Source: Dryococelus australis (lineage: Eukaryota; Arthropoda; Insecta; Phasmatodea; Phasmatidae). From it: a DNA stretch of 64,000 bases. Shown here piece by piece: positions 11,590 through 24,001 of the stretch. A program made the position numbers and the translations under genes. Location: contig CM057009.1 of assembly GCA_029891345.1 (NCBI GenBank), positions 286,512,966 through 286,576,965 on the forward strand, given 5' to 3'. The stretch's first letter is position 1. Each line of letters opens with the position of its first letter. The notes below the pieces were generated by a model that searched no databases, had not been told where the DNA came from, and saw only the letters and a list, made by a program, of their open reading frames with translations.

Positions 11590-11945
11590 AATTATATTTG
11601 ACTCATTCGTCATAAGGGCGGTAACATACTCTACAAGGCCATTACACTCATCTTTCATTTTGTCAAACTTTTTTAATTTATTTGTGGCATGTTATAAATA
11701 TTGTATTTTGGATAATCACTGGGGTCAATTAATCTAACATCGATTTCATGTCCTCATAAACATCTTCTGTTTTAATGTTATAAAAGTACGAATCGGTATC
11801 TTGAAAACACACTTCAACTTTATCACCATTTTTGGCTTCATAATTTTATAATGGAGATCATACATCAATTCTATAATTCTCAGCTCGTGCAATATATTTT
11901 CTCTCAACTCAGCCCCTAGACTGCTCGTCTCAATATTTATATATA
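11590..11945 (-). pseudogene. Family B DNA polymerase, C-terminal remnant (protein-primed type)
   Basis: On the minus strand the fragment reads through ELRENILHELRIIELMYDLH, then a KVEVCFQDTDSYFYNI block with the catalytic DTDS of polymerase motif C. After frameshifts follow DPSDYPKYNIYNMPQIN and a FDKMKDECNG stretch. This succession (DTDS, then a D-S-DYPxxNxYNxPxxN spacer, then KxKDExNG) is characteristic of the C-terminal third of Polinton pPolB. Exonuclease, TP-binding and motif A regions are absent, and upstream DNA instead holds small zinc-ribbon genes, so most of the polymerase has been deleted. At least two frameshifts are present. Its role was genome replication. Confidence 0.8.
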
Positions 11946-12059
11946 ATAAATTTTATTGTAACAAAAATTTATAAAGTCAGCAATTGCTGAGTTTCACTTA
12001 GAATATCCATTCTGTAAATGTGTGTGTTACCATTTTTATGCCTTTTTTTAGCATACTAG

Positions 12060-12430
12060 GTATAACATTTTTTTGCAAGTGTTAAGATTTTTATCTATTG
12101 TGAGTTTGTGAAATGCGAAATCGTCGATAGATTTATTCTCCATGCATGCAATGCAGGTTTTGCTTGAAGAATCACATTGTAAAATTTCGTAAGTATTGTG
12201 CAGTTTAGTATTTTTGTGCTTTTCGAAATTTACCTTGCAAACAGATTTTCCACATTCGTAAAGTACTGCCTCTTTTTTTTTAACACATAGCGACTTCTAG
12301 AATATTCATTATAACATTTTTTGCAGATGTTAATGTGCTTATCTTTTGTGTATTTATGTGATGGAAAACATTCACTGTTTAAAACTTCACCACATTTTTT
12401 ACATTGCTTGCTTATACCACTATTTTTCAT
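12060..12430 (-). pseudogene. Tandem zinc-ribbon protein (Cys4 repeats)
   Basis: An ATG at 12430 opens a 66-codon frame containing CKKCGEVLNSECFPSHKYTK and then CKKCYNEYSR, a CxxC...CxxC unit. After a stop or shift the pattern repeats to about 12060: a CxAC pair with the same HKLTIDK-type spacer and a final CKK. The unit CxxC-x8-F-x-x-H-K-x-x-x-D-K-x-x-x-x-CxxC resembles zinc ribbons attached to phage/viral recombination endonuclease VII-like proteins. No nuclease residues can be seen. TTATAAATAAAA directly precedes the ATG. Confidence 0.6.
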
Positions 12431-12604
12431 TTTTATTTATAAAGAAACAAATTTTAAAGGAAAAAGAAAAATCAACATTTTTATGTAAGCCATTTTCATT
12501 GATAAATTTTGTAAATATTTTGTATTTTCAAGTGTTCAATTGAGAGAAAAAAAACTGACACAAACAAAAATGTTATCTCGAAGCTCTAGTAATTTTTTAA
12601 AAAC

Positions 12605-21480: not shown

Positions 21481-22721
21481 TGATTTCTTTTGCATCTTTT
21501 GTAAAATTTTATCTACTTCTTGCCTAGATTCTAAATCTTTGTGATCTCTATAAGCTATATCATGAACTTTACAAGCTTCCTCTATTTTATTCACTTCTGC
21601 ATCTCGTCTTTCTAATGGTTCACTTAATTTTGTAAATGGTCCACAATAATTATAACCAGACAAATGCATTTCGGGCAAATTTAAATTGTTTAATGCCCAG
21701 TTTATAATGCCTTTGCTATGGTGTTGAGAATTCGAAAATGAGTGCGAAATAACATTTAAAACTCTTATTAGATATGGAATTCCTTTCGTGGTATTAACAA
21801 CAAAGTCAGAAAATCTATTGTTTGGCATATTCATAATGTTTACCTTTTCATTGTAAAAATTGTTATTTCTAGCATTTTCTTCGCCATAAATAACTAATAA
21901 TCTGTCAATTAATTTTCTATAATTGTCCATCCAAATATATTCTGTCGGCAAAATATTATATTTTTATACCATCTCCAGATCTAGGAGAACATGTAAAATT
22001 TGCTCTTTCTAGTGTGTTTGGTGCTGATTATGATGCTCTTATATACATATTCTGAACTGGTTTAATTATATTTTCATACTTCCAACTTCTATTCGAGTTT
22101 ATTGGCTTTTTTTTATTATATTCTTGGAATGCAGCACTGGTTGATAAAACAATTTCTGTGCAATTCTCCTAGTGATTATCGGTGTATTCACCTTCAAGGC
22201 CTGATTGTGTTTTTTGTCAACAAATTAGAAGTCCTTTTGTTAATGTATATTGTTTGCCTTTAACAGACAGTTTATTATTCTTTATCTTTACTTTTGTATA
22301 TCCAATTTCAAACTTATGCCTATTTCCTTGTAAACCATATGGTGTTTTCAAAACGATTTTTCAGAAAATTCTTTCCCTAGTTTTATAACAGAATCCGGAA
22401 GCGTCAAATTTTTTATGAGTATAATGCCCATTCTCTCTTCTACATTAGGTAATTTTGGGAATAATTTTCTTTCAACAGAATTTTCTTCTGGTGTTGGTGG
22501 ATAATCTAAATTTTTTGCGGCAACAGGTACTAATGTTGTTATTAAATTTTTGGTTTCCTCACTTACTTGATCTACTTTATTGCCAATATTATGTAATTCA
22601 CGAATTAATGGTAGATCTTTTTCTTGTTTTTTTTTTTATATTCCTCCTCATGGTTATTTTTATAATTTCTATACTTCCCAATAAGTAATTTCACTCGAGA
22701 AACACCCTGTGAATCCTTCAT

Positions 22722-22745
22722 TTTTATAAAAGAATTTACTTATAA
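22722..22745. promoter_or_regulatory. 24-bp divergent promoter between PLA2 and capsid genes
   Basis: The two ATGs (minus at 22721, plus at 22746) are separated by only 24 bases, which contain TTTATAAAA read on the minus strand and CTTATAA read on the plus strand, each directly abutting its start codon. The compactness and TATAAATG form recall late viral promoters. Shared control of the two virion genes is an inference. Confidence 0.6.
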
Positions 22746-24001
22746 ATGTTTTATAAAAGCATTCAGAGCTTTGAGAGACAAACATTCCCCCCAACTGATC
22801 AAACTAGGGGGAATGATTTCAATAATAGAATCGAATTTGATATTCCCATAGGAGATGACTTTTCTTTTCCAAACGATGCTTATATTTTGCAAGAATATAG
22901 CCTACTAAAAAGAGATAAAACTGGAGATGAGGCAAAATACGAAAAATTAGATAATATTGATGTTTGCTGTAATGTTTTTCCATTTCAGTTTTATAGAGTA
23001 GAAATTCCATAACATGGACATATTATTGAGGCTGTTGATAATCCAGGAACATCTTCGACAATGATGAATATTTTGCTAAGATCACCAGGTGAACAAACTT
23101 ATTTAGAGTCTACTGGTGTTAATAATAAATTTTAAGTAAAACATGTTCGTAGTGATAGAATAAATGAAATTATGTATCCATTAAGATATATGTTTGGCTT
23201 TATTCACGATAGTAATGAAGTTTACTGGAAAGGTGGTTATACAAAAACTTTTTTTAGAAATTCATATAATAACAATTGTTTATTTGTTTATGAAATTTAA
23301 AATCAGATGGTTCGGTTGATAAAAGCTATGCTGATCCTGGTAATATTGTTGTTAAAAAATTTGAAATTTTGTGGCCTATTGTTGAATACGAAGCTAACAC
23401 ATCAATTGCAATTAAAGAAAAAAATATTTAAAAATCCTAAAATTGATATTGGTTTTAAGTACTGGCAATTTTTAGAAAAAGATGTTCCTACTGGGACAAC
23501 TGTTTCCAACTTTGACATAAAAGATCAGTTTAATCATTTGCAATTTGACATGCCTGATTTTGTAATTGTGGGTTTCCAAACTAATAGAAAAATCGCGCTT
23601 AGCAGTATGTGCATACTCCAATGTTTGATCAATGTAATGTGAGATATATATTTGTTAAAAATGGTAGAAATGAAATTTTTCCAAAGGAAATTGGAATCTA
23701 GATATTGAAAATGATTCTGGCTTTTAATGATTGTAGAAATTCCAAAACTAAATTTAGATACTATATACAGAAATAATGAACTTTATTATAAGCCAACTAT
23801 AAACTATCATGGCGATATCAATTATTATTCATTTTAGGGACGAAGACCTTTATATGTTATTGACTGCCTATATAGAAAATCAGCAGTAGTTAAATATTAT
23901 ACAAATAAAAAAATAATGTGTATTTTAATTTTGGGGCTAATAAAATTTGTAACTTATGGTTATTTGAAAGAAATATCACTGAAGATACATAAATTTTTAA
24001 T
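22746..24001 (+). pseudogene. Double-jelly-roll major capsid protein (Polinton MCP), broken
   Basis: ATG 22746 opens an 88-codon frame (RIEFDIPIGDDFSFPNDAYI, LQEYSLL). After a stop, HVRSDRINEIMYPLRYMFGF and further pieces lead to the 23307-23642 frame with KNPKIDIGFKYWQFLEKDVP and LQFDMPDFVIVGFQTNRK. Frame-shifted FDQCNVRYIFVKNGRNEIFP comes next. The PDFVIVGFQT / FDxCNxRxIxV pair is characteristic of the DJR-like capsid family found in Polintons and insect genomes. Later pieces (RRPLYVIDCLYRKSAVVKYY) include the usual VIDCxRxxxxVK block. The total span of about 415 codons fits an MCP. It is shared divergently with the PLA2 gene. Confidence 0.8.

Follow-up and report, generated by a model that had tools for sequence, protein, structure and literature searches.

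The window, that is, the whole stretch of 64,000 nucleotides analysed here (contig CM057009.1 of Dryococelus australis, assembly GCA_029891345.1), carries a decayed element which runs from position 11639 to approximately 24743–24755, as defined by the edges of homology to sister copies in the same genome. It is very probably a dead member of an adintovirus-like (Polinton) family that is present in many copies and has a variable accessory stretch. The initial annotation, made from the sequence of this locus, had proposed a fossil Polinton or adintovirus at 11590..24001; the identification is supported by the gene set and by its recurring order in sister copies, while the limits were revised from the homology edges, and positions 19969–21479 belong to a later Helitron insert. 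The genes named at that time, namely polymerase motif C, chromo-integrase, adenain-type protease, double-jelly-roll (DJR) capsid blocks and a phospholipase A2 (PLA2) protein, are present, mostly as broken pieces and, for the capsid blocks, with weak matches, and Pfam comparison was run separately on each stop-free piece between 11.5 and 24.1 kb of the window. The G+C content of all modules is 0.25–0.29, against 0.38–0.41 in the wider flanks.

At the left end lies a C-terminal scrap of a protein-primed DNA polymerase (pPolB; 11639..11871, minus strand), with motif C (DTDS) at 11732–11845. It matches the PolB of L001 (2e-6) and of sister copies. L001 (JAKSCW010000563.1) is a 6,107-base contig of a Balneolales metagenome-assembled genome, found in a GTDB scan; it contains PolB, protease and fibre-like genes of adintovirus type and was probably misbinned, its source being an animal virus. 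The PolB C-terminus of one sister copy is 48% identical to that of L001 over 107 columns, and the PF03175 profile did not match this PolB. The scrap is joined at 11871/11872 to a zinc module containing a zinc-ribbon protein in two pieces in different frames (12051..12436, minus strand; FYVE-like, 0.0015, below the cut-off). This is followed by BROx (12987..13205, minus strand), a short protein of unknown family which is BRO-like by eye only and has no Pfam match, and by a 48-bp unit (13237..13284), which by nucleotide comparison is single in the window and tandemly amplified in copy L017.

The next gene, on the plus strand, encodes a secreted-type matrix metalloproteinase (MMP; 13366..14861), with Peptidase_M10 scores of 1.1e-6 in the window and, across the full profile, 7e-21 for a sister frame. 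It comprises a prodomain with the cysteine switch PRCGVKD near 13634, a catalytic piece (13761–14030, Peptidase_M10), a broken zinc motif with a stop inside it near 14106, and weak hemopexin-like pieces (14347–14758; Hemopexin 0.16, below the cut-off); the Met-turn reads IMYP. A 68-bp tandem duplication occupies 13636–13771. Pfam listed no Hemopexin match for a 370-residue sister MMP frame. By its Peptidase_M10 domain and cysteine switch the predicted window protein fits family M10A, with the zinc motif broken in this copy. In copy L017, turned so that MMP reads on the plus strand, the 48-bp unit is arrayed in tandem before this gene (~1984–3041).

Two BRO genes lie downstream of MMP, each preceded by one copy of a 75-column promoter-like repeat (14879..14952 and 16033..16107, plus strand), the two being 89% identical in nucleotide comparison. 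BRO1 (14997..15787, plus strand) is in three pieces and combines Bro-N (1.5e-12) and DUF3627 (3.3e-9) domains. BRO2 (16281..16695, plus strand) consists of a Bro-N piece (4.4e-5, slightly under the cut-off) and a nuclease piece resembling DUF559 that lies in a different frame (PvuRts1I-like 2e-4 and DUF559 2e-3, both under the cut-off). The Bro-N domain places these predicted proteins in the BRO family. The location of MMP, BRO and BRO-nuclease genes between polymerase and integrase, as first proposed, is thus borne out in the window by Pfam matches to stop-free pieces.

The chromo-integrase (16802..17887, minus strand) is represented by a chromodomain (16802–16987), a C-terminal part (17134–17316), an rve part (17436–17630) and a zinc piece (17714–17887). 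In the window the Chromo (2e-3) and rve (0.15, weak) matches are under their cut-offs and a sister integrase frame reaches 2.8e-7 for rve, just under; the order CHR-INTc-INTm-INTz recurs in sister copies. L017, turned in the same way, also has a tandem array of an integrase C-terminal segment with a spacing of ~109 bp (~4506–5380). The adjoining fibre gene (17978..18998, minus strand) has tail-fibre-like repeats and a distal domain at 17978–18412 (Phage_T7_tail 0.0067; 4.3e-5, just under the cut-off, for a sister fibre). Mean identity between window and copies is 53% for the fibre end, 58% for pX, 69% for both protease and PLA2 and 73% for the fibre stalk piece. The distal domain therefore has the lowest mean identity among the late genes, and its ratio of nonsynonymous to synonymous substitution rates (dN/dS), 0.44, is not raised; such divergence of the distal domain relative to the stalk is as expected for a receptor-binding part.

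The adenain-type maturation protease (19081..19440, minus strand) is unbroken and keeps its triad residues. Its Peptidase_C5 match (6e-3) is weak alone, and the identity is firm by homology, PDB profile and fold: 508 of 515 candidates in the protein collection matched at E <= 0.001, the profile matches adenain in the PDB (6.9e-5), and the AlphaFold model (predicted local distance difference test, pLDDT, 83.7) has human adenovirus proteases as its best PDB folds; the best viral fold (3.5e-8) belongs to the adenain of Terrapene box turtle adintovirus. Next to it is pX (19548..19766, minus strand), a small basic protein whose position is conserved in the sister-copy gene order. Beyond the Helitron, a core or minor capsid protein with a C-terminal PLA2 domain (21466..22635, minus strand) is composed of PLA2 (21466–21963) and core pieces (22220–22635). 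The domain is of parvovirus type (Phospholip_A2_4, 1.1e-12), its final codons extend into the Helitron insert, and it has homologues in other datasets, including a relative from Gryllus bimaculatus; its structure model is poor (pLDDT 37). The putative DJR major capsid protein (MCP; 22746..24032, plus strand) is in four pieces, with weak DJR-like_dom matches in the window (0.031, profile 136–200, and 0.024, profile 141–200) and one for a sister capsid frame (0.0048, profile 13–115); the window and sister matches follow the order of the profile and are under the cut-off. No protein homologue of the MCP piece was found. The right end region (24033..24755, plus strand) is common to sister copy L020 by nucleotide match and contains internal inverted repeats. 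IMG/VR scans with the MCP piece, the PLA2 and protease alignments, DUF3627, MMP and Bro-N gave no confirmed locus.

The host assembly (3,415,067,245 bases in 646 contigs, the window being on C17) was searched for further copies, and the best 150 candidates of each search were scored, the totals of first-look candidates being unscored. All of these best 150 matched, in the case of MMP out of 1,937 candidates (68–100% identity, the 100% being the window itself), of PLA2 out of 17,344 (68–100%), of DUF3627 out of 2,969 (57–100%) and of an ATPase piece taken from a sister copy out of 19,019 (58–100%). The unscored numbers suggest a far larger family. Several dozen of the ATPase matches listed stand at ~59% identity; many of them share one intact 232-residue frame and score equally, and they probably represent a younger family, related to this one, within this genome.

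Twenty-seven stretches around other copies were examined. Twenty-one were anchored on MMP (eight top-scoring, three from the end of the list and ten more, among them L021, which was picked for its adjoining PolB) and six on PLA2 (ranks 3, 20, 40, 60, 80 and 100, chosen regardless of MMP). The stretches stop inside the element, so that some absences are not losses. The 21 MMP-anchored stretches contained ATPase (15), a penton-like gene (13), PolB scrap (11), BRO (10), nuclease (2), integrase (8), fibre (14), protease (14), PLA2 (12), capsid (12), zinc gene (7), BROx (5) and Pif1 (0). On the MMP strand the full zinc motif HExxHxxGxxH is found in 6 of them and PRCGxxD in 7. Among the six PLA2-anchored stretches, protease and fibre occur in all, PLA2 in 5 (the stretches begin at the PLA2 edge), integrase in 4, PolB and the penton-like gene in 3 each, and ATPase, MMP, BRO and nuclease in 2 each, with BRO or nuclease in 3.

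Pairs of genes within 15 kb were counted from 150 MMP, 150 PLA2 and 107 of the 150 ATPase rows. Among the matches listed, all 16 MMP-ATPase pairs were on the same strand with the ATPase 577–733 bp upstream (0.14 expected), all seven MMP-PLA2 pairs, window included, were convergent at 2.5–7.7 kb (0.2 expected), four of the five ATPase-PLA2 pairs were convergent (0.14–0.2 expected, the range for all pair types), and in six of the eight MMP-DUF3627 pairs, window included, DUF3627 lay on the same strand 1.7–2.1 kb downstream (0.2 expected). The repetition of the order across sister copies rules out chance for the gene pieces, and the co-linearity of MMP with core genes indicates that the accessory genes are part of the element. 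Large insect DNA viruses also have BRO and MMP genes (for the betabaculovirus MMP, see the accessible part of PMC3877225), and the MMP/BRO/BRO-nuclease block is partly missing from some sister copies, as might be the case if it had entered this copy alone as a separate insertion from such a virus. We consider this extremely improbable: MMP has the same neighbours on the same strand and at the same spacing across many unlinked copies, including the spacing to the ATPase given above, and its module ends at 14860–14861 in 14 of the 21 stretches. A one-copy insertion is refuted by the recurring order in unlinked copies, and inspection of the other copies indicated no separate insertions. The accessory genes are the element's own set, present in many sister copies and lacking in others; an ancient capture of these genes by the virus is compatible with the data.

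The same comparison reveals where the copies differ. Nucleotide homology between the window and the MMP-anchored copies breaks at 13365–13393, upstream of MMP, in 16 of 21 stretches, at 14860–14861, after MMP, in 14 of 21, and at 17878–17918, before the fibre gene, in nine. Depending on the copy, the interval from 14861 to ~17880 contains nothing, one BRO, BRO and integrase, integrase alone or two BROs; BRO, BRO-nuclease and integrase together are found in the window, L012 and L022. In L027 the integrase and the fibre end are inverted together (6307–7436).

The ATPase, recognised by its Walker motifs, was found in 15 of the 21 MMP-anchored and 2 of the 6 PLA2-anchored sister stretches, and the penton-like gene, named by eye, in 13 and 3, respectively; no Pfam family matched either. 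In most MMP-anchored sisters both genes are placed just upstream of MMP, between PolB and MMP. When sister pieces were used as queries against the window, nothing better than E 0.19 was obtained. The packaging ATPase, reported missing in the initial annotation, is therefore indeed absent from this copy but not from the lineage, and the same applies to the reduction of the polymerase to its C-terminus, since sister copies have a longer PolB frame. As the sisters carry a longer PolB, the penton-like gene and the ATPase, the absences are losses of the window copy or of its arm type, and the window copy is placed with the Polintons and adintoviruses despite lacking an ATPase because its sisters have one and it is itself truncated.

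Two left arms occur upstream of MMP. Arm A consists of PolB (plus strand), the penton-like gene (minus) and the ATPase (plus), and arm B of the zinc gene and BROx, both on the minus strand; where seen (L012, L018), the PolB region of arm B is inverted further left. The window copy (PolB, zinc protein and BROx on the minus strand) has arm B, the rarer of the two, which it shares with L012, L017, L018, L022 and L040, the last without MMP. At 11871/11872, where its motif C scrap abuts the zinc module, L012 runs on into the rest of the arm, and for this reason a deletion is read at that point; further left, the copy is truncated at 11639. The two arms could be orientation isomers produced by a flip of the BROx-zinc-PolB segment, an explanation which we regard as doubtful. 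The segment reads BROx and zinc gene both plus in L019, and zinc gene and PolB both plus in L014, compared with zinc gene and BROx both minus in the six arm B copies, and the PolB region of L018 and L012 is inverted relative to L023; these orientations speak for a flip. L034 has BROx and the zinc gene on opposite strands, no flanking inverted repeats are on record, and arm B co-occurs with BRO-nuclease in what looks like a sub-lineage, every nuclease seen being linked to arm B (window, L012, L022 and L040) or to a copy with the arm unknown (L038). Furthermore, one place in L012 (L043) was predicted to hold the penton-like gene and ATPase, and neither was found in it. On this single site in one arm B copy, inversion of the whole arm was rejected.

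The polymerase type can also vary. A PF03175 search of the genome gave 54 matches to another PolB type, two of which, at one locus (L021, 697–2247; PF03175 8e-15), stand in the PolB place upstream of MMP in an otherwise typical copy, which points to a polymerase swap. Our tentative interpretation, to which we would give somewhat less than an even chance, is that these elements belong to an animal adintovirus lineage with an exchangeable accessory slot between ATPase and fibre, fed from an effector pool of secreted MMP, BRO and BRO-nuclease, genes otherwise met with in large insect DNA viruses, together with an integrase that comes and goes. What the copies show is a variable stretch between the ATPase/MMP side and the fibre gene, in which one or two BROs, BRO-nuclease and integrase vary in presence; some copies also lack the adjoining MMP. 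If the interpretation is true, the many copies in one genome would allow resident and infecting copies to recombine, exchanging the slot, the left arm, the polymerase type and the fibre end.

From what is known of the family, the ancestor would have been a linear double-stranded DNA virus copied by its protein-primed PolB, with the chromo-integrase inserting viral DNA, the ATPase packaging DNA into a DJR capsid and the adenain protease maturing the particle. The fibre would serve in attachment, and PLA2 on the core protein would help passage through membranes. The most likely role of the MMP would be to open tissue barriers so that the virus can spread, by analogy with what has been suggested for betabaculovirus MMPs; for the BRO proteins, action on DNA or chromatin would be expected. 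The window copy lost most of PolB, by what is read as a deletion, is cut at 11639, later took up the Helitron and is no longer functional.

Selection was estimated as pooled dN/dS between the window and the copies, with 60 neutral simulations per tested gene under a mutation model of our own. Integrase C-terminus, chromodomain, PLA2, fibre end, fibre stalk piece, MMP, protease, core1 and MCP1 gave values of 0.38–0.54, all below their 60 neutral simulations. We read this as several genes having probably been under purifying selection while the element multiplied, with decay later. Spread solely as a germ-line transposon with no particle stage, the capsid genes being leftovers, would suit the copy number (for MMP, PLA2, ATPase and DUF3627, the best 150 all match out of 1,937 to 19,019 unscored candidates). 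It appears unlikely, as protease, PLA2, core1 and MCP1 show purifying selection, subject to the bias of sampling by protein similarity, and homologues of PLA2 and protease are present in other datasets.

A number of observations weigh against our assignment and its corollaries. Neither the DJR nor the rve Pfam scores reach the curated cut-offs, and low G+C content alone is no proof of an element, because the flank at the left end is itself 15% G+C. Among the matches listed, one of the five ATPase-PLA2 pairs is same-strand at 14.5 kb, and two of the eight MMP-DUF3627 pairs misfit the order, one with DUF3627 upstream and one with it on the other strand. MMP is absent from four of the six PLA2-anchored stretches, of which one keeps a prodomain piece and one has nothing to the left of the fibre gene. 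Protease is absent from 7 of the 21 MMP-anchored stretches. One of them, L022, is short, and another, L027, still has pX, PLA2 and capsid; in the remaining five (L010, L013, L019, L024 and L026) late genes are missing or limited to fibre pieces. The dN/dS values of DUF3627 (0.82) and pX (0.79) are inside the neutral range, and those of preM, HPX1, INTm and MCP2 (0.70–0.81) and MCP3 (0.64), for which no simulation was made, are high. Since the copies were found by protein similarity, dN/dS is biased downwards, most for MMP (0.48) and PLA2, and every comparison shares the window branch. Finally, both ends of the window copy are cut, and the family was assigned on features other than terminal repeats with a target-site duplication. 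The left stretch of L034 matches the inverted right ends of L011, L015 and L025 (73.5–75.4% over 126–189 columns). The cut left end is bordered by a 1-kb simple-repeat-like stretch (10660–11638).

Polintons and adintoviruses are considered central to the evolution of eukaryotic DNA viruses. The initial annotation suggested that the element might bridge Polintons and large insect DNA viruses, which have BRO and MMP genes in common with it. Such a link by descent is very unlikely. The core genes (PolB C-terminus, protease clade and protease fold) indicate adintoviruses, the genes shared with large insect viruses are precisely the variable ones, and Bro-N genes have already been reported in some polintons and one polinton-like virus (PMC12721341, accessible part). 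The protease tree, built on 137 sequences, groups the window with 15 sister copies in a single clade (support 0.998), the sisters being those with E <= 1e-20 and at least 80 residues (15 of 20 protease-bearing stretches); the tree covers the protease only, and to that extent the element's grouping with its sisters holds. Gene sharing is supported instead of descent, and the coming and going of MMP and BRO between copies fits gene exchange.

The family resembles Adintoviridae and Polintons in its pPolB, chromo-integrase, adenain protease, DJR-like capsid and, in the sisters, penton-like gene and ATPase; it differs in the variable MMP/BRO stretch, in an integrase that is internal and often missing from that position, in the two left arms and in the high copy number. 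Adintovirus remains are known from tick and beetle (PMC10675110 and PMC9963324, as far as the accessible parts go). Drosophila-associated adintoviruses 1–3 are of similar size (13–15 kb), and adintovirus 1 has PolB, integrase, capsid, protease and FtsK, whereas neither MMP nor BRO is named in the accessible part of that report (PMC8363768). A close parallel is a Bro-N fused to a nuclease in OmPLV, a polinton-like virus of the dinoflagellate Oxyrrhis, whose authors mention Bro-N in some polintons (PMC12721341, same part); its copies are likewise endogenous, low in G+C and decaying, but the nuclease is VRR-NUC rather than DUF559-like, a tyrosine recombinase replaces the chromo-integrase, and the host is a protist. 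Betabaculoviruses also have a viral MMP in an insect virus (PMC3877225, in part), but theirs is a large double-stranded DNA virus, unlike the Polinton-type element with a cysteine switch described here. The element represents a variant of the Polinton/adintovirus family whose MMP and BRO genes lie in a stretch differing between copies. Titles and abstracts on adintovirus or Polinton with BRO, MMP or PLA2 yielded no MMP in an adintovirus, and novelty is not claimed on that point. With its many decayed copies in one genome, the family offers a dense fossil record of how small and large DNA viruses capture and exchange genes; it also urges caution, as the absence of a gene from one fossil copy tells little about its lineage.

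The Helitron insert (19969..21479, minus strand; 1511 bp) contains a Pif1 helicase piece (PIF1 3e-14), is not viral and sits inside the otherwise continuous sequence of the element. It is absent from the other sister stretches (Pif1 in none of the 21 anchored on MMP). Its ends, CTAG at the 3' end and T-CTATACTA at the 5' end, are presumably the Helitron end motifs. Elsewhere in the genome, a long tandem array (L032, ~303 to 3933) adjoins the right end of copy L030. The window also includes a second, older fossil, whose nucleotide comparison with the main element gave nothing convincing; it consists of a PLA2 scrap (376..528, plus strand; P0003, E 1.1e-6) and an adenain protease scrap (6450..6811, plus strand; P0041, E 4e-8). 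It is more decayed than the main element and is split by a retroelement that, by eye, looks like BEL/Pao.

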